NCBI GenBank assembly: GCA_030068145.1
Contig: JAPJBO010000497.1
Span: 103,081-167,080 of the forward strand
Reading direction: 5' to 3'
Length of the DNA: 64,000 nucleotides
Source: Diplonema papillatum
Lineage: Eukaryota > Euglenozoa > Diplonemea > Diplonemida > Diplonemidae
Below the pieces are notes generated by a model. The model was not told the origin of the DNA and searched no databases. It was given only the letters and a program-made list of their open reading frames with translations. Made by a program: the position numbers and the translations under genes. The first letter of the stretch is position 1. Every line of letters begins with the position of its first letter. Below, one piece after another: positions 13,594 to 47,400 of this stretch.

Positions 13594-16500
13594 TTACCGC
13601 GTATTTGTGAAGCATATACCACCGGACCGTGCAGGTTCTCGAAAGACATAAGGTTGTACACACCGCTTCAGGCCGATGACGGGCAAGTCATTTGCGTTCA
13701 GATCGTCGAGGGCGACGGCGTGCAGACTCACCGCCTCCAGCGCTTTCTCTGTGGCGATGTGCAGGGCAGGCGAACTGACGTCCTCCGTGGTGAGCTCGAG
13801 CAGCGCTAACATTCTGTCACAGGTGTGTAAAATTTTATGGGTTTCGAGTGGAAGGTTGACACGCCGGCTTTCGTCTGATTCATATGAAATGAAAGCACCC
13901 GTGTGTGTGTGGGTGATTGTGTGTTGAAGTTCATGGCTCAATGTGGGTAACGTCTGGTAAGGTAAGTATAGCCCCCCGTCACTTTCCTCCATTTTCTCAA
14001 CGCACTACACCGCCAGGCATGAACTGATGCAAACAGAAATCAAAACGCTAGCCAAGATCCTTGAAGTGTGGAAAAGGAGGTGTGCTAGGCGCATTGTCTG
14101 GATACCAGGCCAGGAGGGTCACCCCCAACAGACTAGCAATGAGAGGTGTTCCGCCTTGTGCGACAAGGTTTGCACGTCGATGCCGAAAGACAATGGCGGA
14201 CCTGTGCAGCACGGTACTCCACGTTTCGCCGGCGCCGACGCGGATCTGGAACGGGGACGAGTGGATCTCGAGGGAGTGCCCGCCCCGCTCGTGGAACTGC
14301 ACCACGTTGCATGTGGCGCACTCCAACCCAGCGCAACCGGGCGGGTCTTCCGGCACCAGTCTCAGCTCGAAGGACGAGGCGCTGTCCTCCGGTAGAGGGA
14401 AGACGTCGGTCGCCCTGTACTCCGCGCGAATGTGCCTGTCTCGGATCTCAAGCAGCACCAGCTGGTCCCCCGGCACGCCCTCGAAGCAGAACGCCTCGCC
14501 GTCCCTCAGCACGTCGATGATCACGCCGACGGTCGTCCTCGCCAGCAGCACGATGCCTTCGGTGCCGACGACCTTCCCGTTCGCACAGCCGAACGCCACT
14601 TCCACAGACGCCCGCTGCTCGAGCTCGTCGACCGTCAAATCGGGCAAAACGTCGTAGAACAGAGTCCTTGGCGACCACGTCTGGAACATCGTTATTTGGT
14701 CGAGCGTCCGATTGTCCGACTTCCGGACGAGCGACTCCCGCGTGCTGCCTTCCTGCGAAGAATCGGTCCACAACCGGATGTGACGAGGGTCCTCGTTGAT
14801 ACGAGCCGCGAGGAAGGTGGTTACTTCCGAGTACGTCATCGACTTCAACAGTTGGACCGTCACCGGTTCTCGTTCTTCGTCGAGCCTGTCGAAGGCGACG
14901 CGGACTTGGTCGTTGAGGAAGAGGTAGTAGTGCTCGACCGTGGGAAACCGCTTGTTGTGGTGTTCCGGCTTCATTTCGTGGAAGGTGAACACGAGGGTCG
15001 CCCCGGTGCTGTTGGCGAGTTGGTCGAAGGTTTGCTGGACGACGTTCGTCCCGGGCACGGACGACCAGACGTCGTGGACCCTGCCGGGATGCTCCTCGTG
15101 CCACATCCAAATTTCGTCTTCCTCCGGGATCGACGCCAGCTGCTTCGCCACCTCGCCTAGCGACTCTATCAACTCCTGACGGTGGACCACCGTCGACCCG
15201 ACATGCGAAACCCGCTCCGATACAGGATCGTACCTCTGCAGGAATACCAGCACGTGCGTCGCCTCCTCGCAGGCCTGCAGTTTTACGCCTCCTTCGTCGC
15301 ACGTCTCGGGCGGTGCCACCCACGCGCTGATGCCGGAGAGGCTTAGGCACCTTTCCACCACGCACGCGAAGCTGTCGTCCTCGTCGCCGTCTGCCGACGG
15401 CAGCAGCTCCAGCCCCGGCTGCGCCTCCGGCCCGCCCCGCGTCTCGACCGTCAGCGTCCGCTTCCCGCGGAGCCCCGAAGCGCCGCTTCCGCTGTCTTTC
15501 GACGCGCCCGTCGGCGAGACACCCGCTTGCGCCGGATCATCGTCCGCGGACGATGACGCCACCGGCGGGCCGTTGGCAGGGGTTGTGGAAGCGGGCGCAC
15601 TATCGACCGTCTCCTTCTCTGCCGGAAGACCCTCCGCGGGCGGAGCCGTTGCGGAAGCTGGCGCAGCGGCCGTCGCGTACGCTGGCAGACCCTTCGACGG
15701 CGAAGCCACGGGTGTCGGGCCTTTTTGAGGGGAAGCGGAAACCGTCGCGTCGACCGTTTCTTGTGTTGTTAAAGCCTCTGGCGGCAAAACCCTGGGCGCC
15801 GGGTTCGTTTGAGGAGCTGCGGAAGCCGGCGCGTTGGCCGTCTGTTGTGGTGTTAGACCTTCTGGAAGCGAAGCCACGGGCGTTGGCTCTGTTTGAGGGG
15901 TTGTAGAAGCTCGCGCTTGGACCTTCTCCCCGGGAGGCGTTGTAATCGGCTCTTCCCGAGGAGACGGAGAAACCGGCACTCGAACCTCCCCGCCCGCAGA
16001 CGATCCGAGCGCAGCCCTCGCCGAATGCGCCCCAGCAGCCACCTTCGGGGACAGCATGGCTCCCGTTTGGATCGCGTTCGTCGCCCCTTCCTTCCCCTTC
16101 CCCCCGGGTGAAGCCACGGCCGTCGGCTCCTTCCGAGGAGACGCCGAAACCTCCGCGCCCGCTGGCTCTCCGAGCGCAGCCCTCGCCGAATGCATCCCGG
16201 CAGCCACTTTTGGAGACAGCATGGCTCCCGCTTGGATCGCGTTCGTCGCCCTTTCCTTCCCCTTCCCCCCGGGCGACGCCACGGCCGTCGGCTCCTTCCG
16301 AGGAGACGCCGAAACCTCCGCGCCCGCTGGCTCTCCGAGCGCAGCCCTCGCCGAGTGCGGGCCGGCAGCCACCTTCGGCGACAGCATCGCCGCCGTCTGC
16401 ACCGCACCGCCGGTCACCCGCCCCCGCCGCGCGCTGCCGCTGGGCGACTTCCGCGCGGCGGCGCCGCCCGCCGGCGAAAGTGCCGCGGCCACGACCCTCT

Positions 16501-18637
16501 CGGCGAGCTTGGTGGCCGGCAAGCACGGGACCACCCGGGTGACCTCCAGCTCGTCGCCGCACACGGCCGCCGCCGCCCCGAAGCGGAGGTCGATCACCAG
16601 CTGCGGCAGCGCGGCCGCCGCCGGGTTGAACAGGGATCCGGTGGCTTCGCGGTGGTCGTACGTGACGGTGCCGTTGTGCAGGACGCGGATGTTGACGTCG
16701 CGGAAGGAGTCGACCGGCAGACCCGCATGCACCTGCACCCGAGTGAAGGCGTGGGGGGCCTCCCAGGTCAGGGTGTACGCGGGGCAGGAGTCGTTCGGGT
16801 GGGTCAAGGTGCACGTGGCGGACTTCCGCTTCGCGACGGTTTGCGCGGCTTTCGGCGCGGTCGCGTACGAGGTCTGCCGGGCTTTCGCCGCACAGGCGAC
16901 GTCGACGCCGGCGCCCGCGAACAGCGGGCGCCGCGGCACGCGGGCCCGGGGAACCTCCAAGTAGACGTGCAGCGCCTCGCTCGGCGCGGCCGGGCAGCAC
17001 CGCCGCCACGCCTCGCCGACGACTTCCCCTCCGGCCGTGCCGGGGCCGAACAACAGCCGCTTCCGCCGGTCGCGGGCGGCGACGTTCGACACGCGCCACA
17101 GCCGCGCCCCGCCGACGTCGACCCCGGGGAGGCGTTCTGCCAGCTGCGCCCGAAGGGCGCCGATCGTCGACTTCTTCGCGACGACAACCGGGCTGCCGTG
17201 CGGGCCTTGCGGCGGGTGCTCGCCGGGGGGCGGCGGCTGGGGGTTGGTGAGCGACGCGTCGGTGAGGACGTTCAGAGTCACGTACCTTTTCGCCTCCTCC
17301 CAGAGGTCGGCCGCGTGCTGCATGGACCGCAGGCGGGTCTCCTGCGCGAGCACGATCGCGCGCGGGACGTTGAACACCGGCGCGTCAAAAATCGCCGGTA
17401 TCGCGGTTTCCCGTATGTACATCAGCACGTACCCCGTCGCGCCAGCCATCGGCCCGAGCCCAAACGGGCGACCCCCGCTGGTCTGCGCGCTGCCGCCGAA
17501 GGACTGTTCGAACACGTCGCTTTGCGACACCGACCGGACGAGCTCGTCGTTGAACTCGAACCACGGCCCGCCCCGCGGGTCTGGGCGGATGCACGCGTAG
17601 TAGTGCCCGTTGCGGGCGCCGCCGCAGTGGACGATGACGCTTTGGACCTTGTAGACCGCCGGCGATGAAGGGTCGTACAGCGGGTTCTGCTGCTGCAGGG
17701 TCTCGTGCTCGGTTTTGAGGGTCTGCGGGTCGGCGGACGGGGATGGAAATCCGGCTTCGTAGGCGGAGAGGTCCAGTGTTTCCGGGTACTCGAACCTATC
17801 GAACAGCTTCGTCAGCGAAAGGTGCTCCGACGTGTAATCAATGTCGAACCGCTTCAGGTGGACGACGAGGCACGGCGGGAACATCCGGAACCGCACGAAC
17901 CTGTCCGCCGTCTTGTACACGGCCGCCTCCCCGGGGATCTCGACCTTGTACTTGTTGTTCCCGTCGAGCCTCTCCGGCTTGCAGAGGTCCCGCAGCGCTT
18001 CGTGCACGCCCTTCCGCCCTTTGATGTCGAGCTGGAGCTCGTAAAACGATTCCCTCCTCTCCGACTCGAAAGTGCCGTCCGCCGTGCGCACGACGTTGTC
18101 GATGACGCCCTGGAATAGATGGCGCACCCGTCCGTCGGAGGCCGTGCCTTTCATCTTGTCTTCCAGCTTCTCGCGGAGCTTGATGCACATCTCGTGTAAG
18201 TCGTGCTGCGTGACGAGCTCTTCCTTGTCCCATCCAAAAGAGTCGGTCAACTGCTTGGTGCTCGCGGGTTCCCGCTGGGAAGACATGGAGTGGAACAAGA
18301 ACTGCAACGCCGACGGCATGCTGTCGTCGACTTCTCTCCGCATGTCGAACACCGCACCCCGGAAGTAAGGGATGTGGTAAAAGCACTGGATCAGCGAGTT
18401 CAAGTAGCACGTCGACCCCAGGTTGACGAGCCCTGTGTGTGCGGTGGGCTGCCGGCGGGAGGGCGAGCTCAGCGCCGAGGTGCGGCCGGTGCTACACGTT
18501 TCGCCGTCGCTTTCGCTTTCGTCCGGCTCGCTGGAATCGAGATAGTAACTCGCGCTCGAGGCCCCTTCGCCCCGACTCGCATCGTCCGCCCACGGCCGCA
18601 GGAACGCGCTGAACAGCTTCAGGTCGGCTTCTTGCAT
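13594..18637 (-). CDS. USP7-type ubiquitin-specific protease
   Basis: Exons 18637-14202 and 13813-13594 join in phase (CTGCACAG|GTCCGC donor, CTGTGACAG|A acceptor) to 1551 residues. The peptidase domain covers about 65-415: Cys box GLVNLGSTCYLNSL with Cys77, the QHDLHEM helix, a KMKGT loop as in USP7, LKRFDI, and His box GARNGHYYACI with His345. Ubiquitin-like domains follow, with a clear match to the USP7 ICP0-binding region at about 1125-1315 (HVLVFLQRYDP, FPTVEHYYLFLNDQV, KSMTYSEV). The last ubiquitin-like fold is split by the intron: PFQIRVGAGETWSTVLHR continues as MLALLELTTEDV, which supports the join. The family removes ubiquitin from nuclear substrates. The N-terminal MATH/TRAF domain of USP7 is missing, and a 300-residue Ala/Pro/Ser-rich insert with three 55-residue repeats splits the C-terminal half. 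Start Met is the first in frame. Confidence 0.92.
13814..14201 (-). other. Intron of the USP7-like gene
   Basis: A 388-bp GT-AG intron inferred because it restores the ubiquitin-like fold across the join. The donor is GTCCGC, again GTCC-type. A TG run lies at 13900-13922 on the plus strand. It is the only intron in the window in which I see no dispersed repeat. Confidence 0.75.
15950..16430 (-). repeat. 165-bp in-frame tandem repeat in the USP7-like gene
   Basis: Three units with a 165-bp period (landmark ACAGCATGGC or ACAGCATCGC at 16051, 16216 and 16381) encode 55-residue repeats with LSPKVAAG, HSARAALGEPAG and SPRKEPTAVASPGG. The last two units are nearly identical at the DNA level. The period is a multiple of 3, as expected for selected coding sequence. 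Confidence 0.9.
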
Positions 18638-25047: not shown

Positions 25048-25416
25048 CTACTGGCCTTGTGGGAAGTGTTGGTACAGCTGCGGATAAAAGTGTTGCGGCT
25101 GCTGCTGCAGGTGGACGGGAACCTGGGCCACGGCGGATGGGCTGTGCGTCGGCTGGCTCAAGGGTTGCACTTGCGCCACCGGATGCGGGAGCTGCGCGGT
25201 CAGAAGTTGGGCTCGCTCCATGCTCAGCGGGGACTGGATGAACGGCGTGCCAATGTACATGTGGAGAGATGCTTGCGTCAAAGGTTGCGCTTGCTGCTGG
25301 CGTTGATGCTGCTGCTGTTGCTGCTGGTGCTGTTGCGGCTGCTGTTGATGCGGGTGCTGCTGCTGCTGGTGCTGCTGCTGCGGCTGGTGCTGCTGCTGCT
25401 GTTGCTGCTGCTGTTG

Positions 25417-25499
<83 letters not shown>

Positions 25500-28400
25500 G
25501 CTGCTGCTGCTCTTGCTGCTGCTGCTGATGCATCCGCTCCCAGTTCGGCTGCTGCTGGCCGTGCGGCTGCGGCTGCCTGCTTTGCTCTTGCTGCTGCTGC
25601 TGCGGTTGCCGGTGCTCCTGCTCCTGCTGCCTGCCTTGTTCCTGCCGCTGCTGCTGCTGCTGCTGCGGCGGCGGCGGCTGGTAGTACGGCTGCGCGGTGT
25701 TGGAAGAGCTCGCCCCGTACGAAGCGTGCGACGCAGCGTCGTTGCGACCGTTACTGCCGTAGTAGCCCGAATTGGGCTGCCGCGGCGGCTGCTGCTGATC
25801 ATGCTGCTGCTGCTGCTGCTGCGGGGGTTCGTACGAGTTCCTCACCGCTGACGACCTGTCGCCACCTGCGACGCTCGCCGTCGGAGGGAAGCCACCGCCC
25901 TTTCGGTACGTGGTCGGCGGGGGCTGGTGCACAGGGGTCCTGACGACGGGCATGTGCTCGGGGATCTCGGACTGCCGGCGGAACGTGTAGATTTTGACGG
26001 TGTGGGCCGCATCCGGCAGCGCGCCGCCCCGCGACCGCTGCGAGACGTAGTTCATGAACGGGTTGACGTGCCGCTCGATCTTCACGCACGCGACGGTCGG
26101 GTTGCCCATCTCCTCGATCCTCCACTTTTTCATCGAGTGCTGGCTCGAGACGATGTGGATCTCCCCCCCGGGCTTCAGCACGTTCACCGCCGACCGCAAA
26201 AATGCCTCGAGAAGACATTGGTTGGACGCGACGTTTTCAGCCCCCGTAGGGTAGGCTCCGGAGTGCGGGTTGTTCCAGCGGACGAAATCGAAGAGCCCGC
26301 GGCCGAGGGTTTCCAGCTTCGTGGCGTCGACGTCGTGCAAGACGGTCGCGCCGCTCTGGTGGGCGGTCATCACGTTGATTTCGCCGTTGGGAAGCTTCAA
26401 GGCGTATTCCTTGGAGTCGTACCCGGTGGCGACGATGTTCGGCGCGTTGCCGAAGTGCGCGGTCAGCGCCGCGGCGTAGGCAAAGTTGCCCTCGCCGACC
26501 AGCAGGAGGCGGGTGCCGCGGACGTACTTGACGGGGTCCTTCTCGACGGGGACGTCGCTGTACTCGCCCTTCTGCATGATCGACCGGCCGATCTTCGCAA
26601 CGATGTCGCGCTGCCTCTGCGCGAGGTTGATGCGCCTGCCAACCAGGGGATGCAGCGGCGCGCTGTTCGCCTGCGGCGGGAGCCCGACGCGGGAGAGGAT
26701 CAGGTCGACCGTATTCGGAGACGGGTCGCACGAGAGCCCGCTGTCCGAGCAGCAGCGCATCCAGTCCTTCGACCAGTCCGACGTGGGCTCCGTCGTCAGG
26801 TACTCCCTGACCTGCTGCACGATCGGGTTCGGCGTGTACAGCACGTGCTCGAACTTCAGCGTGACCATGTCGGCGGTTGAATTGCGGGCCAGAGCCTTCG
26901 ACAGCTCGACGGCGGAGGTCACGTCGATGTCGTTCACCTTCCGGATGATCCTCTGCACGAACTGTTCACCGCCGTGCCGTGCCAGCGCCGACGAATCTGC
27001 GACTCCTGCCAGGGTCATGCCGTCAAGTTGACAGCCCAACACTTCGCCCGGGTGCTTTCGTTTGACGACAACTACTTCTTCATTGACGTAGTCGCCAGCC
27101 GCCCTCATGTCGGCATGAGTCGACCGAATGACGTCAATGCTGCGTCCTGTGTGCGACGCTTGCTGCGCGTAATTCTTGCACATCAAACGGCCCGTGCGTG
27201 AGAGTGCTTTGGTGAAAGAGTCGGCGGTGGAGAACTCGACGTAGGCTTGTCCGTGGGATCGGCCGTCGTCTTCGAGGACGAGGTGGACGCCCTGGGGGAT
27301 GATATCGAGATCCGGGAACAGCTGCTTGACGATGTCGACGCCCGTGACGGTGAATGGCAACCCGCGCAGCCACACGACGTACGGGCCGCTTGGTTCGGGT
27401 TCCTTCGGCGGAGGGTTCGCATCTGCCATCGCAGCCAGCGTGCTCCTGTGCACCTCGATGTATCGACTCCCCATTTGCCCCTTGTCTTTTTCCAGGGCCC
27501 GGTCCAAGTCAGCGGCGCCTTGCAGGTGAACGAAGCAAGTTCCATTCACCCGACCGTAGTCGTTGTCCACCATATGGATCCCCTTCGGCACGACGTTGAC
27601 GCCGGACATGAAATCGACCACGTCCAGTTCTGTCGAAGTCATCGGCAGGCCTCGCAGTTTCACCACGAAAGCCTCAGCGCTCGCACCGCCGTGGGTCTGC
27701 TGGACTTGCAGGGCATCTTGCTCGGTCGTGCGGAAGACTTCAACGTACCGCGAGCCGAAGCGGATTTGTCGGTGTAGTGACACGGCCAGGTCAGCGTCAC
27801 TGATAGAGAACAACTTCACGGTGGCGCACCCAGAGTGGCGGCCGTCTGCACCGAATTCGATGATGACCGAGCCTGGGACGGCGTTGACTCTGTGTTCTCC
27901 GAGGAACTCGACGATCTCTCCTTCTTTAGCAGAAAACGGGAGGCCACGGAGCCTGATATAGAGCGAATCCTTCGTCTGATCGACGGACGCAGCCTCCGCG
28001 CGGTCCGCCGAAGCTACGGTCTGCAGGTAGCACTCCACAAACCGGTGGCCCATGTACTGCCTGTCCTTGCTCAGCGCCTGCTTGGCCATCTCGTCCGACT
28101 CGAAGCGCACGAAGCACTCGCCTTTAGCTTTTCCCGTGCGGTCGAACAGGAACGCGACGCGTACGACGCGCAGCGGCTGGAAAAAGTCCTTCACCTGCAC
28201 TTCCGTGCTGGCCCAAGGCAGCCCCCGCATCCGGATGCAGACCGTGGTCGTCTCCTGCTGCTGGTCAGGCGGTTGCAAGGCACTTTGCGACGGCTGCTCT
28301 GGTTCTCGTTCCTGCTGCTGCTGGTGCTGCACTTGGTGCTGTTGCTGGTGATCTTGCGGGTGCTGCTGCTGCGGTTGCATGAGTTGCGGTTGTCGCAGCT

Positions 28401-28577
28401 GTTGATGTTGCTGCTGCTGTTGGTGTTGGTGATGCTGCTGCTGCTGTTGCTGCGGTTGCTGGTGTTGCTGGTGCTGTTGCCGCTGCTGCTGTTGCAGTTC
28501 TTGCAGTATTTGCTGCTGCTGCTGCAGTTGCTGCTGCTGCTGTAGTAGTTGCTGTTGCTGTTGCTGCTGTTGCTGCT

Positions 28578-28613
<36 letters not shown>

Positions 28614-29274
28614 CTTGTGGTTGTTGTGGTTGCCGCTGCTGATGTTCGTGCTGACGCTGCTGCTGCTGCTCTTGCGGCTGCTGCTGCTGGTGCTGGTGCA
28701 GCTGGAACATGGACTGCGCATTGACTCCAAGCTGCATCATGCGCATGTTGTTCTGGAGGTCCTGCATCCCCTGCTGCGCCGGCGCGTTCAAGGCGGGCAG
28801 TCCGACCATGTTGACGCCCCGCAGCACGTCCAGCCCCTGGTGGGACCCCGGGCCCGCGCCCACCGCACTCATCCCGGCCAACCCCCTCTCCAGCCCCTCC
28901 TGCCCCTGCCCGCTCCGCCCCGCGAGGCCCCAGTCGAGCGCCATCCCTCGCAGGGCGCGGTCGGTGTCGTTGGCGGCCGCCGCCCGCCCCTCGGCCGCCC
29001 CGTCGCCGCCGTTGCCGCGCGGCTTCTCGTCCGCTTTGTCGGCGGCCGCCTGCGGCGGCACCGGCCGCTGCGGCGGCACCGGCTGCACGGGCACCCCCGA
29101 AACCCCGTTGGGCGCCGGCGCCTCGCCTTGCGGCTGCGGGCGACCGAAGAACGCGGGGCCGCCGCCGCCGCCGCCGCCTCCGTCCTTCTTGCCGCCGCCC
29201 TTTCGGAAGCCCTTCTCGCCTTTGGACCCGCCCTTTTTCCCGCCGAACGGTGAACCTTTCCCGCCCTTCCCCAT
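25048..29274 (-). CDS. Four-qRRM, PDZ-like, BMT5-like methyltransferase and polyQ protein
   Basis: A single open frame of 1408 residues. The start is the first Met after a strong acceptor (TTTTTATGTTCAG, exon from 29314), 40 nt upstream. Order: Gly/Lys-rich N terminus; polyQ (about 200-330); four quasi-RRMs of the hnRNP F/H type starting near 339, 435, 531 and 631, each with a RGLP motif (IRMRGLPW, IRLRGLPF, VKLRGLPM, VWLRGLPF); a PDZ-like domain near 731-808 (EVLGCQLDGM, IRKVNDIDVTSAVEL); a DUF2431/BMT5-like Rossmann methyltransferase domain near 915-1096 (LLLVGEGNFAYAAAL, FDFVRWNNPHSG, LKPGGEIHIVSS); and a long Gln-rich C terminus. BMT5 methylates uridine in large-subunit rRNA, so an RNA-modifying or RNA-scaffold role is inferred. 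The combination is unusual and no intron is needed to obtain it. Confidence 0.9.
25290..25690 (-). repeat. CAG/CAA polyglutamine tract, C-terminal
   Basis: An imperfect CTG-rich array on the plus strand (CAG in the gene sense) encodes Gln runs broken by His, Arg and Pro. The long pure CAG stretch at about 25425-25500 suggests it can change in length. Confidence 0.95.
28300..28705 (-). repeat. CAG/CAA polyglutamine tract, N-terminal
   Basis: A mixed CAG/CAA array in front of the first RRM encodes Gln with His and Leu. It is less pure than the C-terminal array. Confidence 0.95.
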
Positions 29275-29309: not shown

Positions 29310-29340
29310 CGTCCCTGAACATAAAAAGGAGAAAGCACGA
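29310..29340 (-). promoter_or_regulatory. Splice acceptor upstream of the RRM gene start
   Basis: On the minus strand a pyrimidine tract and AG (TTTCTCCTTTTTATGTTCAG) end at 29315, 40 nt before the ATG, with no ATG between. It could accept a 5' leader exon in cis or a trans-spliced leader. No leader RNA gene was found in the window. Confidence 0.55.
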
Positions 29341-30913
29341 ACTCACGCGCACACACCCTACCTAACCCGCCAGAGTATGTCGGCAGCGACTCACCCCCAC
29401 CCACCCTCTCAGCGCCGGTCCGGCGAAAAGAGAGAGAAGAACCCGAAAAGAAAAAAAACGACGGGTGCCTTCGCCTTTAAATGCCGTGTGTCGCTAGCTT
29501 TTCGGTTAGTCGTCGTGACCGTTCGGCCCCGTCGGTGGCCGTCGACGCGAGAAGTCGGCTGGCCCTGGTTCGTTGGTCGCGCACCGTGCCAGTTTATACT
29601 TCGCCTCCCCCCGCTTTCCTTTGCTGCCCACGGCCCTCCGCCGGTGCGCTTTTTGCCCTGAAGTGTTTGCGATGGATTCTGCAACAGACAGCGATGAGCC
29701 TTAGTAGTCAAACGCGTGTACAAACTCGAAAAGAGCGGCGTCTTTCGAAGGCGCTAAAACCACAGGCGATCGGTAGCCTTTGGTCCTGCCTGGCCGTTTT
29801 CGCGGACAACGCAGGCAGTGTCATTTTATCCCTGGTCAAGACGTACGAAACCCTAGACACTGGAAGGAGAACGGATGCGCTAACGACAAAACATGAGTGC
29901 CTGAGCACCAGGTTTCAGGAGTCTCTGAAGCCGCCCAAGTCGCAGAGACTCTCCCAACATGGGTCCGTCCCGTTGAACTTCTCGACAACACGAGCGCGTT
30001 CGGTGGTCAGTTGTTTTGCGGGTGCGCAAAAGAAGGGGAGAGAGATGGAGACAGACGAGTTAGAGTGCAGGGACCATCTCTCCGGAGAGGTTCGGGTCTC
30101 CTCACTTACTCCGTACCGCTAGGGTGCATCGGGTTTCTTGCAGTGTGGTGTCTCTTCAAACATCAACTATGTAAACCCCTCATCGGACATCAACTTGCAG
30201 CCACCAACCAACGAACAGATCCTGCCCTGCCGAAGCGCGGGCAAGTAAGAAAGAAGGGAGAAAGGCAAGGCCCGCCGATTCTGACGACCTGGTACACAAC
30301 CTTACCCGATACACAAAAGGGTGCTTGATGGAAAAAGGGCGCGGAGAGAGGTGAACGCGGGGGGGCGGGTGGGGCGAACTTCCGCGCAAAGGGACGCAAC
30401 GGGAACAGAAAACCGCAGATGCCATGATGGGGGGGTTCTCCCTGCCGCGCGGGCACCGCAAGAACACACCCGACCTTTCCGAACCGGGGAGGAGCAGATA
30501 CTTTCTTGAGAGTCACAAGGCATCAGCCCAGGAGGCAGGTCAGAGCTAGTGGTATCCAGCACAGCTGACGAACTTGTTGGCCGCCTTCGCTCCTTCACCG
30601 CGAAAGTAGGCTGAGACAGCAACCTTCACAACTTCGAATATCTTGTTTTTGTAACGTGTTGATGAAGGTGGTAGACACAGAGAGTGTCAATCCACAGCAG
30701 TTCCACTTCAGCATGGCGGCGTACTACGTGACGAGCTCTCCATTCCAAAAAGAAAGGCAACGCGTCATTGAGAAAAATACCCCTGTTATCGGGGAGCCCA
30801 GTGCTGGCACTAAGCGGCCAGATTGCGGAGTCGTTGGCAGAATCTGCGTTTGGGTGGGAGGGGGCCACCCCACCCCCACCTTGCAAAGTCGTTAGGGTCT
30901 CTCAGGCTCACTG
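29341..30913. other. 5' flank of the RRM gene and gene-free DNA
   Basis: No gene is recognised. A family J fragment (GAGTTAGAGTGCAGGGACC) lies at 30057-30120. Confidence 0.5.
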
Positions 30914-31137
30914 TCATTGTCCGACACCATCCCCGTGTGTCATTGTCCGACACCATCCCCGTGTGTCATTGTCCGACACCATCCCCGTGTGTCATTGTCC
31001 GACACCATCCCCGTGTGCATTGTCCGACACCATCCCCGTGTGTCATTGTCCGACACCATCCCCGTGTGTCATTGTCCGACACCATCCCCGTGTGTCATTG
31101 TCCGACACCATCCCCGTGTGTCATTGTCCGACACGTG
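30914..31137 (+). repeat. 26-bp minisatellite, about 8-9 units
   Basis: The unit GTCCGACACCATCCCC plus GTGTGTCATT is repeated almost without change; one unit lacks a base (about 31017). The array ends at GTCCGACACGTGTAC. All three plus frames are open because 26 is not a multiple of 3, so the long ORFs here are artefacts. Confidence 0.95.
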
Positions 31138-42429: not shown

Positions 42430-43640
42430 CATGGTTCACATCACCGACCCGGTTAGAAGGACGGTGGCTGCCAGCGACTGTCTGCTTGAGGTTGAGGGAT
42501 TGAGGCTGCTGCTGGTTGACAAGGTCCTGCGGCTGATGTCTGGTGCGGTGACCTCCGGCCTCCGTAGTTCTCGGACGCGGTGGACCCAGCCTGTCGCTGA
42601 GTTGTATGGTTAGTCTTTCAGTAGGTTCACATCACCGACCCGGAGGGCTCAGTGGACAGAAAACAAGATGGATGCACCTCTTGCCTCGCCAGCCGCACTC
42701 TCTACCAGGACGGTGGCTGCGCCCAGTGTCTGCCAGCTTGAGGTTGAGAATGGAGGCTGCTGCGGGTTGACGTGATGCTGCTGCGACTGGTGTCTGGTGC
42801 GGTGCACGCAGCCGACGTCAGCCTGGGTGGAGGTTGAACGGCTTACACGAAGATGTACATCATCAATCCCGAGGGCTGAGACCCTGGAACGAAACGAGAT
42901 GGGGCACCTTGCCTCGCCAGCTGCTCCTTGCAGTGGCATCGCCCAGTGACTGCCTACTTGAGGTTGAGAATGGAGGCTGCTGCTAGTTGACGTGATGCTG
43001 CTGCGGCGGTGCCCTTAGTCGCCGGACGCGGTCGACCCGGCGGGCTCCAGCCTGTCGCCGATGTTGTGTAGTTCGTCGTTCGATTGGCGAGGTGCAGCCT
43101 GGGCGGAGGTTGAACGGCTTACACGAAGGGTCGTATCATCAATCCGGAGGGCTGAGACCCTGGAAAGAAACGAGATGGGGCACCTTGCCTCTCGCCAGCA
43201 GCGCTCGCTAGCAGTGGCTGCGCGGGAAGTCGCTGGGCGGCTGCGCCCAGCGACTGCCCGTTTGCGTTTGAGGCGGCCGGCCCTGCGGGAACTGAAGCTG
43301 CTGCTGCTGCGGCGGCGGCAGCTGCTGCTGCTGCTGGAGCCTGGGGTGGTGGCCGCCGGCTGCCACACAGCCGCGCCGCCGTCTTGGTGGCTGCGCCCAG
43401 TGTCTGCCTGCTTGAGGTTGAGAATGGAGGCTGCTGCGGGTTGACGTGATGCTGCTGCGACTGGTGTCTGGTGCGGTGCTCTTAGTCGCCGGACGCGGTC
43501 GACCCGGCGGGCTCCAGCATGTCGCATGAGCTGTCTAGTTTGTCGTTCGGTTGCAACTGCTCGAGTCGGGTGAGGTGTACGCAGCCGACGTCAGCCTGGG
43601 CGGAACGGCTCACACGAAGATGTACATCATCAATCCGGAG
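42430..43640. repeat. Tandem partial copies of the helicase 3' end
   Basis: A block at 43630-43810 inside the helicase C terminus (CCGGAGGGCTGAGACCCTGG to GAACTGAAGCTGCTGCTG) is repeated almost exactly at 43140-43320. More decayed copies stand at about 42870-42960, 42640-42720 and 42430-42500. Linkers such as GAGGTTGAGAATGGAGGCTG recur too. The unit is 240-490 bp. None keeps a helicase motif, so they are non-functional 3' copies. Confidence 0.85.
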
Positions 43641-43698
43641 GGCTGAGACCCTGGAAAGAAACGAGATGGGGCACCTTGCCTCTCGCCAGCAGCGCTCG

Positions 43699-46600
43699 CT
43701 AGCAGTGGCTGCGCGGGAAGTCGCTGGGCGGCTGCGCCCAGCGACTGCCCGCTTGCGTTTGAGGCGGCCGGCCCTGCGGGAACTGAAGCTGCTGCTGGCG
43801 GCGGCGGCAGCTGCTGCTGCTGCTGCTGGAGCCTGGGGTGGTGTCCGCCAGGTTGGTGGCTCGCCCAGGCGGCGCGGCACCCCCCGCGTTCCACACCTGC
43901 GGAGCCCCGCCTTTGCGGCCCCACGAAGCGCTTGCCGGCATCCCGGCGGAGTACACGCCCTGCCGGCCGCCCCCCCCGTGCGGCGCTGCCGCTCCCCCCC
44001 CGTTGCCGAACCCGTTCGGGCCGCCGCTGCTGCTGCTGCTGTGGTCGCCGGCGCCGTTCTTCCACAGCGCCGCGCCGCCGCCGCCGACCGCGGCCGCGGG
44101 GTCGTGGCCCCAGCGGCAGGCGGCGCCGAACGAGGCACCCGCGCCGCCAGCATAGCCCTGCCCGCCTGTAGGTGCAGCCACGCTGTTGCCTGAGCTGGGC
44201 CCCCACCCAGACTGGGGGTGCGGCTGCAGTTGCGGCACGTGGAGACCGGCGGCAGGCTGCTGGACGAACGGCGAGGCGGCGGGCTGCATGAGTTGCTGTT
44301 GGTAGGGGCCGGGCCAGCCGGCCGAGACGTTCGGCACCAGGGCCGCGGGGGGGCGGGAGATCCGGACAGCGCCGGAAGCCGCGATCGACAAGGCCGCGGC
44401 CACCAGAAACGGGGCGATGAGGTTCTTCGGCAGCTTCTGCTCGCGCAGCTCGTGCATGACGGCCGGTGACAGCGTGCCGCTGACGTATCCCTTGGCCGCG
44501 ACGAACTCCAACCAGGGCCCCCAACACTCGACGTCCTTGCACAGCGTCGCCGGGTTGCCATACACGACGAGGCCCCTCTTCGCGCGGGTGAGCATCACGT
44601 TCATCCGCCTCGGATCCGCCAAAAACCCGACGGAGTTGTGCTGGTTCGCCCGCACAGCGCTCACCAGAATGACCTGTTTTTCCCTGCCTTGGAAGCCGTC
44701 GACGCTGTTGACTTCCAACCCGAGGGAGCCTTCTCCCTCCGCGTGTTGAAACACGCGCCCGCGGTTGCCGCCGCGCGGGAGGTTAAGCAGCTTGCGGATG
44801 AGTTTGACCTGCGAAGAGTACGGCGTGATGATGCCGATATCGGCCGGCTGGAGGCCGGACGACTGCAGCAGGCTGCGGACGGTCGCTGCGAGCTGCTCAG
44901 CCTCGAGCCGGTTGAGGTAGCTGCTGCCCTCCGAGGTCTCCGCGGAGTCGATCGGGACGAAGGCCAGCGGCGCGGCGGGGTTCGGCCACGGGATGCCGAA
45001 GACGGGCGGCCGGTCCGCCGCGGTGACGCCGGAGAGGAGCTTGTGCTGGTACACCATTATACTCGAGAACTCGGCGAGGGCTGGGTGCATGCGGTACTGG
45101 GTATCGAGGAGGCGGGGCTTGAGGCCCGCGTGCACCAAGCGATCGAACAGCGAGACGCCCAAACCGTTGAGTTCGGCGGTCCGGGAGAGGATGGTCGGAG
45201 GGAGCTGCTTGTGGTCGCCTACGAGCGCGACTTGAGAGGCGCCGTGGATGATGGGGATCAGCGTGCTGGGCTCCGTCGCTTGGCTCGCCTCGTCGATGAG
45301 CACCGAGAAAAACGGCACTTTTTCGAGCACCTCGCATCCAGCCCCGCTGCACGTCGCGCACACGACGTCGGCCCGCCGGAGGATTTGCTGCTGCACTTGG
45401 TAGTTGTCCCCCGGTGGACCCTTGTACATGGACTGGAGGTATTCGAGGGTGTGCTGGTTGAGGTCGGCCCGCGTTGCTTCGGGGCGCCCGATGCGCGCGA
45501 CCGATAAGCCGGCGGCCGAGAGGCCGGTGATTAAGTTGTCGACCGCGGTGTTGCTGTCGGATGTGGCGAGCACCGGGCCCATGTTGTTTCCGAGCCACGA
45601 CTTCACCAGCGCGACGGAAGTGTACGTCTTCCCGGTGCCCGGCGGCCCGTGGATGAGCGAGATGCGCTGCGTCAGCGCGTGGGCGACCGCGTCTCTCTGC
45701 GATGCGTTGAGCTCTTCCACGCCGCAGACCCGGCGGCGGGCATTGCCGGCGGGCTGCGCGCTGCACTGCGCGACGTACGCCTTGTTCTTCTCGTCGGCCG
45801 GCGTGAGCACCTCGTGGGGCAGAGGGGCGAAGAGCAAGGCGTCGTGGATGCCGGGGTCCGCGTACGTCGAGTTCCGCGCGTACTCCTTCACCTCGACGAG
45901 CTTCTTGACGGCTTCCAGCTGCCGGATGAGCGACGTTCGGTTGGCCATTTTATCGATCCTCCAGCTCCTCGAAGCGGAGAGGTTGACGGGGCTGTTCGTC
46001 CGCAGGGCGCACCTTGTCCCCGTGGAGTATACTTCAGCTTCGACGCCGTCTTCGACCGTCGCGTTCTGGGCGTAAGGCATGACCAGGACGGTGTCGCCTT
46101 TGACGAAGGGAAACGGGTACTGCATGCTGCCCATGAACACTTCGAGCTGCGTCGGCTTCGAGTTGTGCGAGAACTGGACGTTGAGCACGGCGGTGCCTTG
46201 GTCTTCAAGAGCCTTCGGGGGTGCTTGCGCGATGCGGGCGAGGGACTGCGTCGCGTCTTCGAGGAAGTCTTGCAGCAAAAGAGGGAGAAAGTGGCGGCAG
46301 TATTTCCGGCAGGCTTCCAGCCGCGAGTCGGGCTGCGGGCCGAAGTCGACGACGTCGACGATGGGGCGGACGAGGAGGGTCAGCACGTCTTCGGCGCAGC
46401 ACTTCTGCGACACCTGCGAGAAGGCGGTCACCATTGTTCGGAGGTTCGGCCACTGCTGGAGGGCGGCCATGAGCTGGCAGACCTTCGCCGCGCCGGTGAG
46501 GTTCGCTTTTTGCGCGCACTTGAGGAGGACTTCCTTCAGGATGTCGCTTTCGATGTTCCCCCTGGGGTCGGCGGCCGCCATGGCCAGGTGGTGCACCGCG

Positions 46601-46827
46601 TCTTCGATGTTGCCGCGCTCAAGGCTTTGCCGGACCTGCGCCTTGTGCCGGATGTTCGGCGCCATCCGGGACCGGTCGTCCCCGTAGTAGCCCGACGGGG
46701 CCCCCGGGCTCAGCCTCCTCCTGCGCTTCTCGCACGGGTTCACTGGCAGGCCCATCGCGATGCTTTCCGCGGCCCGCAGCTTTCTCCGCCGCTTCTCGCT
46801 CGCCTTCGCCGCCTCGGACCGCACCAT
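43699..46827 (-). CDS. UPF1-like superfamily 1 RNA/DNA helicase
   Basis: 1042 residues without a visible intron. The chosen start (VRSEAAKASEKRRRK follows Met) is the first Met after the CA-rich 5' flank; the frame is open further upstream through low-complexity sequence. Helicase motifs in order: Walker A HGPPGTGKT (about 395), motif II LIDEASQATEPS (about 515), GDHKQLPPT (about 540), QYRMHPALAEF (about 577), VDGFQGREKQ (about 711) and LTRAKRG (about 749). This order and wording fit the UPF1/SMUBP2/senataxin group, 5'-to-3' translocases acting in RNA decay or R-loop removal. No UPF1 CH zinc domain is seen in the N-terminal 350 residues. The last 250 residues are Gly/Pro/Gln/Ser-rich. The exact C terminus is uncertain because another frame stays open to 43482 through the duplicated block. 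Confidence 0.9.
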   Translation of the reverse strand: MVRSEAAKASEKRRRKLRAAESIAMGLPVNPCEKRRRRLSPGAPSGYYGDDRSRMAPNIRHKAQVRQSLERGNIEDAVHHLAMAAADPRGNIESDILKEVLLKCAQKANLTGAAKVCQLMAALQQWPNLRTMVTAFSQVSQKCCAEDVLTLLVRPIVDVVDFGPQPDSRLEACRKYCRHFLPLLLQDFLEDATQSLARIAQAPPKALEDQGTAVLNVQFSHNSKPTQLEVFMGSMQYPFPFVKGDTVLVMPYAQNATVEDGVEAEVYSTGTRCALRTNSPVNLSASRSWRIDKMANRTSLIRQLEAVKKLVEVKEYARNSTYADPGIHDALLFAPLPHEVLTPADEKNKAYVAQCSAQPAGNARRRVCGVEELNASQRDAVAHALTQRISLIHGPPGTGKTYTSVALVKSWLGNNMGPVLATSDSNTAVDNLITGLSAAGLSVARIGRPEATRADLNQHTLEYLQSMYKGPPGDNYQVQQQILRRADVVCATCSGAGCEVLEKVPFFSVLIDEASQATEPSTLIPIIHGASQVALVGDHKQLPPTILSRTAELNGLGVSLFDRLVHAGLKPRLLDTQYRMHPALAEFSSIMVYQHKLLSGVTAADRPPVFGIPWPNPAAPLAFVPIDSAETSEGSSYLNRLEAEQLAATVRSLLQSSGLQPADIGIITPYSSQVKLIRKLLNLPRGGNRGRVFQHAEGEGSLGLEVNSVDGFQGREKQVILVSAVRANQHNSVGFLADPRRMNVMLTRAKRGLVVYGNPATLCKDVECWGPWLEFVAAKGYVSGTLSPAVMHELREQKLPKNLIAPFLVAAALSIAASGAVRISRPPAALVPNVSAGWPGPYQQQLMQPAASPFVQQPAAGLHVPQLQPHPQSGWGPSSGNSVAAPTGGQGYAGGAGASFGAACRWGHDPAAAVGGGGAALWKNGAGDHSSSSSGGPNGFGNGGGAAAPHGGGGRQGVYSAGMPASASWGRKGGAPQVWNAGGAAPPGRATNLADTTPGSSSSSSSCRRRQQQLQFPQGRPPQTQAGSRWAQPPSDFPRSHC

Positions 46828-47400
46828 CGTGTGTGGACGTGCGTGTGTGTGTGGATGCGTGCGCGTGTGTTGCCCCCCTTTTTTCTCTTTCTGCTTTCTG
46901 TTCTCACTGCTACGCACGGGGTATGAAGGTGGGCATCCGGCCCTAATAACGAAGATATTGCGGAGGCTCGCCAAGACCCAAAGCACACAAATACACGAAT
47001 CTTAATAGCTTGTTCTGTAGGAAATACTTGAGGAGGGGTTCCTTCAGGATGTCACCCCTTCGATTGTTCCCCCTGGGGTCGGCGGCCGCCACGGCTGCAC
47101 CAAAGTGTGTGGACGTGCGTGTGTGTGGATGCGTGCGCGTGCGTTGCCCCTTTTTTCTCTTTCTGCTTTCTGTTCTCACTGCTACGCACGGGGTATGAAG
47201 GTGGGCATTTGGCCCCAACGAAGCAACTGTGCACTGCGACTCGCCAGGACCCAAAGCACACAAACACGCAAATCTTAATAGCTTGTTGAAGCTCTTGTTC
47301 AGTAGGAAATACTTGGGGAGGGCTTCCTTCAGGATGTCACCCCTTCGATGGTGCCCCGCTCGAGGCTTTGCCGGACCTGCGCCTTATGTTCGGCCCACCC
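46828..47400. repeat. Decayed duplications of the helicase 5' end
   Basis: Coding DNA at 46525-46655 (CTTCCTTCAGGATGTCGC, CCCTGGGGTCGGCGGCCGCC, GGCTTTGCCGGACCTGCGCC) reappears at 47035-47095 and 47325-47390. The 5' flank at 46830-47000 (GTGTGTGGACGTGCGTGTGT to CGAATCTTAATAGCTTGTT) reappears at 47107-47290. Both junctions read TAGGAAATACTTG, which matches the reversed 3' part of family A. Confidence 0.85.

Follow-up and report, generated by a model that had tools for sequence, protein, structure and literature searches.

A stretch of 64,000 nucleotides from the genome of Diplonema (Paradiplonema) papillatum, a diplonemid and a marine single-celled flagellate, encodes on its minus strand a protein in which four quasi-RNA recognition motifs (qRRMs) of the hnRNP F/H type are joined to a PDZ-like domain and a BMT5-like methyltransferase. 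We refer to the whole stretch as the window. All domains lie in a single open reading frame (ORF) of 1408 codons plus stop, with its ATG at 29274 and its stop at 25048. The same architecture was found in five further sequences, and a UPF1-like helicase, encoded by an adjacent gene here, precedes the qRRMs in frame in two transcripts of relatives. Our tentative reading, on which confidence falls a little short of even, is that the ORF encodes a diplonemid multi-domain RNA-modifying protein, a methyltransferase that would be guided by its qRRMs to G-rich RNA and would work with the UPF1-like helicase. The features of the ORF, in which P0002 is a public gene model of the same gene, are as follows:

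25048..29274, minus strand: full ORF, from N to C terminus a Gly/Lys-rich N-terminus, a Q-rich stretch, four qRRMs, PDZ-like domain, helical linker, BMT5-like methyltransferase and Q-rich C-tail
28252..28707, minus strand: Gln-rich stretch, residues 190-341, 63% Q, inside the segment 28252-28725 treated as an intron in P0002
28024..28251, minus strand: qRRM1, residues 342-417, RGLPW ... HRFVE (Pfam RRM_1; sequence match to 6dhs/5uzm; Foldseek)
27727..27969, minus strand: qRRM2, residues 436-516, RGLPF ... SRYVE (Pfam, PDB sequence matches, model)
27442..27672, minus strand: qRRM3, residues 535-611, RGLPM ... SRYIE (Pfam, PDB sequence matches, model)
27121..27381, minus strand: qRRM4, residues 632-718, RGLPF ... 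GRSID (Pfam, PDB sequence matches, model)
26842..27084, minus strand: PDZ-like domain, residues 731-811 (hhalign with controls and PDB profile matches; below the Pfam threshold; low-confidence models)
26554..26838, minus strand: helical linker, residues 813-907, helices in the model, RINLAQRQRD motif at 26587-26634
25975..26514, minus strand: BMT5-like methyltransferase with C-terminal extension, residues 921-1100, VGEGNF cofactor motif within 26464-26499 and WNNPHSGAYPTG at 26242-26277
25282..25827, minus strand: Gln-rich C-tail, residues 1150-1331, 56% Q; 25222-25719 treated as an intron in P0002

The original prediction, made from the letters of the window, had placed four hnRNP F/H-type qRRMs and a DUF2431/BMT5 domain in one frame, and Pfam confirmed both: RRM_1 matched four stretches of the protein (E = 2.8e-23), and the BMT5-like family PF10354 scored 102.5 bits over residues 924-1059, where the cut-off is 24.7 (E = 4.1e-29). 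For the PDZ domain of the same prediction, the whole protein drew no PDZ match from Pfam, and the linker piece (residues 813-907) drew no Pfam match at all. Each of the four qRRMs carries the RGLP[WFM] motif, and a sequence comparison with solved structures put the qRRMs of hnRNP H, Glorund (AT27789p) and hnRNP F nearest, the lowest E being 1.8e-26 and the best matches 6dhs, 5uzm and 2hgn. Foldseek matched the qRRM model to 5uzm with a TMt of 0.88. AlphaFold2 and Foldseek together back the RRM and methyltransferase parts of the protein, but the PDZ region was modeled with low confidence.

Homologue searches scored the candidates sharing most words with the query (7992, 7997 and 7994), and their results hold for the candidates scored; absence from other eukaryotes does not follow. 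At E ≤ 0.001, 14 homologues were obtained among the 7992, six with RRM and PF10354, seven with RRM only and one with PF10354 only. Besides P0002 (EukProt), which is the same gene at 100% identity, the full architecture was recovered in the EukProt transcripts P0003, P0004 and P0005 (71-72% identity to the window protein), in P0006 (ENA, on an 815-kb contig; 61%) and in P0007 (JGI, on a contig of 3095 bases; 41%), and therefore is not an assembly accident. Between the window and P0003-P0005, identity is 83-85% in qRRM4, 76-79% in the methyltransferase, 73-78% in the PDZ region and 49-54% in the linker. The RINLAQRQRD linker motif is present in the window and in P0003 to P0006 and absent from P0007, and Q-rich C-tails occur in P0003, P0004 and P0006. 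P0004 and P0005, which belong to one Trinity gene, are 97-100% identical from qRRM2 to the methyltransferase and 70% identical in qRRM1, and their C-tails differ, that of P0005 resembling the window (50%) and that of P0004 resembling P0003 (69% over 16 columns); this mosaic may reflect homogenised paralogues, alternative end exons or assembly chimaeras. No pair of PDZ and methyltransferase without qRRMs was found among the 7997 candidates scored with a PDZ-linker-methyltransferase profile against shorter proteins, a search whose matches were limited to five PF10354 proteins, 208-260 aa long.

In the genome (271,365,524 bases in 2910 contigs), no second copy of the architecture was seen among 12 matches from 36 candidates scored: one is the gene itself, six are qRRM-only stretches on four contigs and five are methyltransferase-only. 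The 10-kb surroundings of the qRRM loci on contigs C506, C278, C435 and C319, searched with the whole protein, contained no PDZ or methyltransferase exons and gave only matches to the qRRM region.

Residues 731-811 can be assigned with good confidence to a PDZ-like domain, an assignment that comes from a profile-profile test with controls, the structural models being of low confidence. Using hhalign, a profile of the five orthologues was compared with 13 PDZ domains taken from this genome (15 PDZ_6 loci fetched, two near-duplicates removed) and aligned with a probability of 96.5% and a score of 53.6. The top score of 60 column shuffles was 18.3, and 13 other slices of the same proteins scored 9.0-12.4 against the PDZ profile, 11 of them without PDZ overlap and two overlapping the region by about 2 and 22 residues; a further slice containing most of the PDZ region scored 44.1. 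Searched against the PDB, the five-piece profile returned seven sequences at E ≤ 10 (best 0.079), the top five being PDZ domains as judged from molecule names (three scribble-type, two from serine proteases). In Pfam scans of the single pieces, PDZ_Tricorn matched one of five orthologue pieces (E = 0.043), and the window's own piece matched nothing but a phage capsid family with no relation to PDZ (E = 0.01). The structure aligner gave rows confined to the methyltransferase part (model residues 193-410) and is uninformative here. The predicted PDZ-like domain is thus borne out by profile comparison above its controls, while the PDZ families of Pfam stay below threshold. PDZ_6 itself is very frequent in this genome, with at least 99 matches (150 of 253 candidates scored), 13 of those listed being on contig C50.

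The methyltransferase of the window carries a VGEGNF cofactor motif and WNNPHSG, which contains the N-x-P-H motif. We aligned 15 BMT5-like domains, namely those of the five orthologues, five other copies from the genome and five others. All 15 rows contain the G-[ED]-G of the cofactor motif, and 14 contain the Asp of DAT; the Pro, His and Asn of N-x-P-H occur in 15, 12 and 9 rows, respectively. All five orthologues share WN[NH]PHSGAYP[TS]G, retain [VI]GEG, DAT and N-x-P-H, and form one clade (99/99). Intact cofactor and N-x-P-H motifs argue for a working enzyme and against a bare scaffold, and the domain is probably catalytic; between the targeted RNA modification and the reused scaffold that had both been proposed at the outset, conservation of the motifs would favor the former. 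The accompanying picture of BMT5-like enzymes as small, stand-alone proteins proved too strong. PF10354 has 20 matches in the genome, this gene included and some being exon pieces, and one of them lies inside a 4800-codon frame (contig C105) and another inside a 1420-codon frame; the BMT5-like domain of P0015 (ENA, 882 aa) likewise lies in the C-terminal part of a long protein. Four of the genome matches are on contig C949 and three on C814, and C142/C1026 are also listed.

The next Pfam-recognisable gene, about 14.4 kb upstream and likewise on the minus strand, lies in an ORF at 43699-46986:

43699..46827, minus strand: UPF1-like SF1 helicase, 1042 codons from the ATG at 46827 (Pfam AAA_11/AAA_12; identity, tree, UPF1 structures)

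Pfam recognised AAA_12 (E = 7.2e-56) and AAA_11 (E = 2.3e-49), and a PDB search listed UPF1 chains first (E = 9.7e-86). The CH domain of UPF1 (PF09416) gave no match with the whole ORF at E ≤ 0.01 or with the N-terminal piece at E ≤ 10, searches whose filters may drop weak matches. In P0003 (1764 aa) and P0005 (1899 aa), a helicase of this kind is fused in frame ahead of the qRRMs. The window helicase is 50-51% identical to the N-terminal parts of these two proteins over 767 and 808 columns, and P0005 and the window ORF start alike: MVRSEAAKASEKRRRK. Genome-wide, no helicase matched P0003 better than the window ORF did (27 of 362 candidates scored). A helicase copy on contig C381 at first showed higher local identity than the neighbour (59 versus 52%), yet over the common core the neighbour is nearer (62.7 versus 58.1%; the P0024-C381 pair was left out of the identity counts). 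In a 14-row tree with unresolved deeper order, the neighbour groups with P0003 and P0005 (96/99), and C381, P0024 and P0026 form a separate group (100/100), which overturned C381 as the candidate orthologue. By core identity and tree placement, the window helicase is the orthologue of the helicase fused in P0003 and P0005. We read the window as holding two adjacent genes whose products form a single chain in transcripts of relatives, which would hint that they act together.

Between both genes there are 19 stop-to-stop frames of at least 150 codons. Scanned with Pfam, none exceeded the cut-off, a search that small exons would escape; five had weaker matches, four of them to TELO2_ARM (0.028), Tau95_N (0.06), DNAJC11 (0.043) and DUF5504 (0.051) and the fifth a low-complexity PARP/PRP38 match on an AG repeat (best 0.0007). 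PPR-like repeats, suspected by eye in the helicase N-terminus, were dropped, Pfam finding no PPR. Direct repeats of the helicase gene ends recur beyond the gene (42712-43797 and 46602-47388), the 3' end over 195 nt at 96% and the 5' side over 105 nt at 84%, 64 nt at 92% and 46 nt of coding start at 91%, and resemble the repeat-bounded genes described in PMC10161547. Elsewhere in the window (14048-18637, minus strand), a 1529-codon frame encodes a USP7-like deubiquitinase (UCH E = 1.6e-44; USP7 ICP0-binding domain E = 2e-27).

We propose that the four qRRMs would bind G-rich single-stranded RNA in the manner of hnRNP F/H, and that this binding would position the C-terminal BMT5-like domain on selected transcripts. 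There, an S-adenosylmethionine-dependent methyltransferase would modify a base, uridine N3 being a guess by analogy with Bmt5. The PDZ-like domain and the Q-rich ends may bring in partners or ribonucleoprotein granules, and the UPF1-like helicase, a neighbour gene here and part of the same chain in relatives, may cooperate by opening structured or protein-covered RNA. Several observations weigh against this proposal. The orthologue methyltransferases sit on a long stem of 2.44 changes per column, apart from the other BMT5-like rows, such that the base specificity need not be m3U and the substrate may differ. No PDZ match appeared in a Pfam scan of the whole protein at E ≤ 1, the PDZ_6 search of the genome (E ≤ 0.001) placed none of its matches inside this gene, and AlphaFold2 runs with 6 and 10 rows gave pLDDT (per-residue model confidence) block means of 31-60 for the region. 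On the side of the helicase, it and the ORF are separate gene models here, P0023 and P0002 (P0023, taken from the best 120 of 633 matches listed, is encoded by the window). The linker between helicase and qRRMs in P0003 and P0005 has no match in the window, and that of P0005, roughly 126 residues up to qRRM1, none in Pfam. P0006 is without an N-terminal helicase, as is P0007, though the contig of the latter has just 3095 bases. In addition, P0003 and P0005 may come from two species or be paralogues of one.

Among the alternatives, an rRNA methyltransferase of a diplonemid Bmt5 type is unlikely. Here the qRRMs would merely hold G-rich pre-rRNA and the helicase would be a ribosome assembly factor. 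PF10354 does place the domain in the Bmt5 family, and yeast Bmt5 is listed for m3U2634 of 25S rRNA (PMC5199042), but other BMT5-like genes of this genome could serve that purpose, and hnRNP F/H-like qRRMs, like UPF1-type helicases, are characteristic of proteins that act on mRNA. It is tempting to speculate about an all-in-one enzyme that would mark mRNAs, uniting a UPF1-like helicase, four G-tract-binding qRRMs, a PDZ-like adaptor and a BMT5-like base methyltransferase in one chain in some species and in two neighbouring genes in Paradiplonema. Such an enzyme, which might act for example via long 3' untranslated regions (3'-UTRs) and might install a base methylation so far not known on mRNA, is an improbable extension of our proposal. 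That the methyltransferase fold is instead a catalytically dead module, binding RNA or protein within a regulator of splicing or mRNA stability, would agree with its long stem branch and with the dominance of RNA-binding and peptide-binding-like domains in the protein. We find this quite improbable, given that [VI]GEG, DAT and N-x-P-H persist even in the farthest orthologue, at 41% identity, and that the domain is conserved about as well as qRRM4.

The structure of the gene bears on a further alternative. The uninterrupted frame of the original prediction holds over its 1408 codons, but P0002 (1099 aa) treats as introns two CAG-rich stretches, one of 158 and one of 166 codons, both in frame and with GT..AG ends, a removal that leaves every folded domain intact, and a larger unit with the helicase is conceivable. 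Spurious introns arise from repeats in the Diplonema genome (PMC10161547). Ahead of the start codon lies one more feature:

29315..29334, minus strand: candidate spliced-leader (or cis) acceptor, pyrimidine-rich with AG at its end, from reading of the sequence

Its AG sits 40 nt before the ATG at 29274, a spacing in line with spliced-leader addition and with the length of about 70 bp that PMC10161547 reports for 5'-UTRs; a start at 29322, as in P0002, would overlap this acceptor. The last 19 bases of the diplonemid spliced leader, its 3' end, have 628 exact copies in the genome (329 forward, 299 reverse; reversed control 0), which marks the genome as that of a diplonemid, and are absent from the 64-kb window even at two mismatches. 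A 26-base tandem array (8.6 copies, 98% matches) lies upstream of the ORF at 30912-31134. One very long gene of about 22 kb, in which the helicase exon at 43.7-46.8 kb would be spliced over about 14 kb to the ORF to yield a helicase-qRRM-PDZ-methyltransferase protein, with the short form arising by spliced-leader addition at the internal acceptor, is suggested by the fused P0003 and P0005, by the frame being open across the candidate acceptor at 29315 and by a 72-kb intron reported for this species (PMC10161547). We regard it as very doubtful, since the two genes have separate models, the helicase frame ends in its own stop and the linker of the fused proteins is unmatched in the window. Finally, an assembly or annotation artefact, or a chance frame, has a negligible probability: gene models in this genome are perturbed by repeats (PMC10161547), but the domain order is identical in six other entries from EukProt, ENA and JGI, five of them apart from the same gene.

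Few marine microeukaryotes are as abundant as the diplonemids, whose mRNAs gain a spliced leader through trans-splicing, as in all Euglenozoa (PMC10161547). The same paper raises the question of which RNA-binding proteins use the very long diplonemid 3'-UTRs. A conserved hnRNP F/H-type binder and RNA-methyltransferase-like protein, fused to a helicase in transcripts of relatives, is a candidate for such use, and could carry Bmt5-type chemistry beyond rRNA to other RNAs; its interest comes chiefly from conservation, probable catalysis and the helicase link. Within the limited reach of our search, the open literature yielded no description of qRRMs combined with a BMT5-like or PDZ domain. By word search, the main text of PMC12699882 contains none of hnRNP, RRM, BMT5, PDZ and UPF1, and that of PMC10161547 lacks RRM and has PDZ once, for another gene. 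The union of an RRM with a modification enzyme is already known from ALKBH8.

The ORF protein shares qRRM sequence, fold and the RGLP motif with hnRNP F/H, Glorund and ESRP/Fusilli, of which ESRP and Fusilli are named protein matches (32-38% of the query, 27-29% identity). hnRNP F/H is not known to carry a methyltransferase. It has three qRRMs (PMC7244589), whereas the ORF protein has four, followed by the PDZ-like domain and PF10354, and thus falls outside an enzyme-free family of three qRRMs. With Bmt5 and BMT5-like proteins (PF10354, DUF2431) it has the VGEGNF and N-x-P-H motifs in common; yeast Bmt5 is listed for m3U2634 of 25S rRNA (PMC5199042). The domain of the ORF protein branches apart on a long stem and forms the C-terminal part of a large RNA-binding protein. 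The neighbour helicase is like UPF1 (RENT1/NAM7) in its core and differs from it in the fusion of its orthologue to qRRM-PDZ-methyltransferase in P0003 and P0005; it may also differ in the CH domain, which was not found by searches that may miss weak matches. In FDXACB1, a BMT5-like domain is fused to a tRNA-synthetase anticodon-binding domain, not to qRRMs. ALKBH8 and TRMT2A resemble the ORF protein in joining an RNA recognition motif to an RNA-modifying enzyme or domain, and differ in that their motifs are not qRRMs, their methyltransferases belong to other families, their substrates are tRNAs, and neither is known to have a PDZ domain or a helicase. Mammalian ALKBH8 consists of RRM, AlkB, Zn finger and methyltransferase, and human ALKBH8 mutants without the RRM lose oxygenase activity (PMC4051686).

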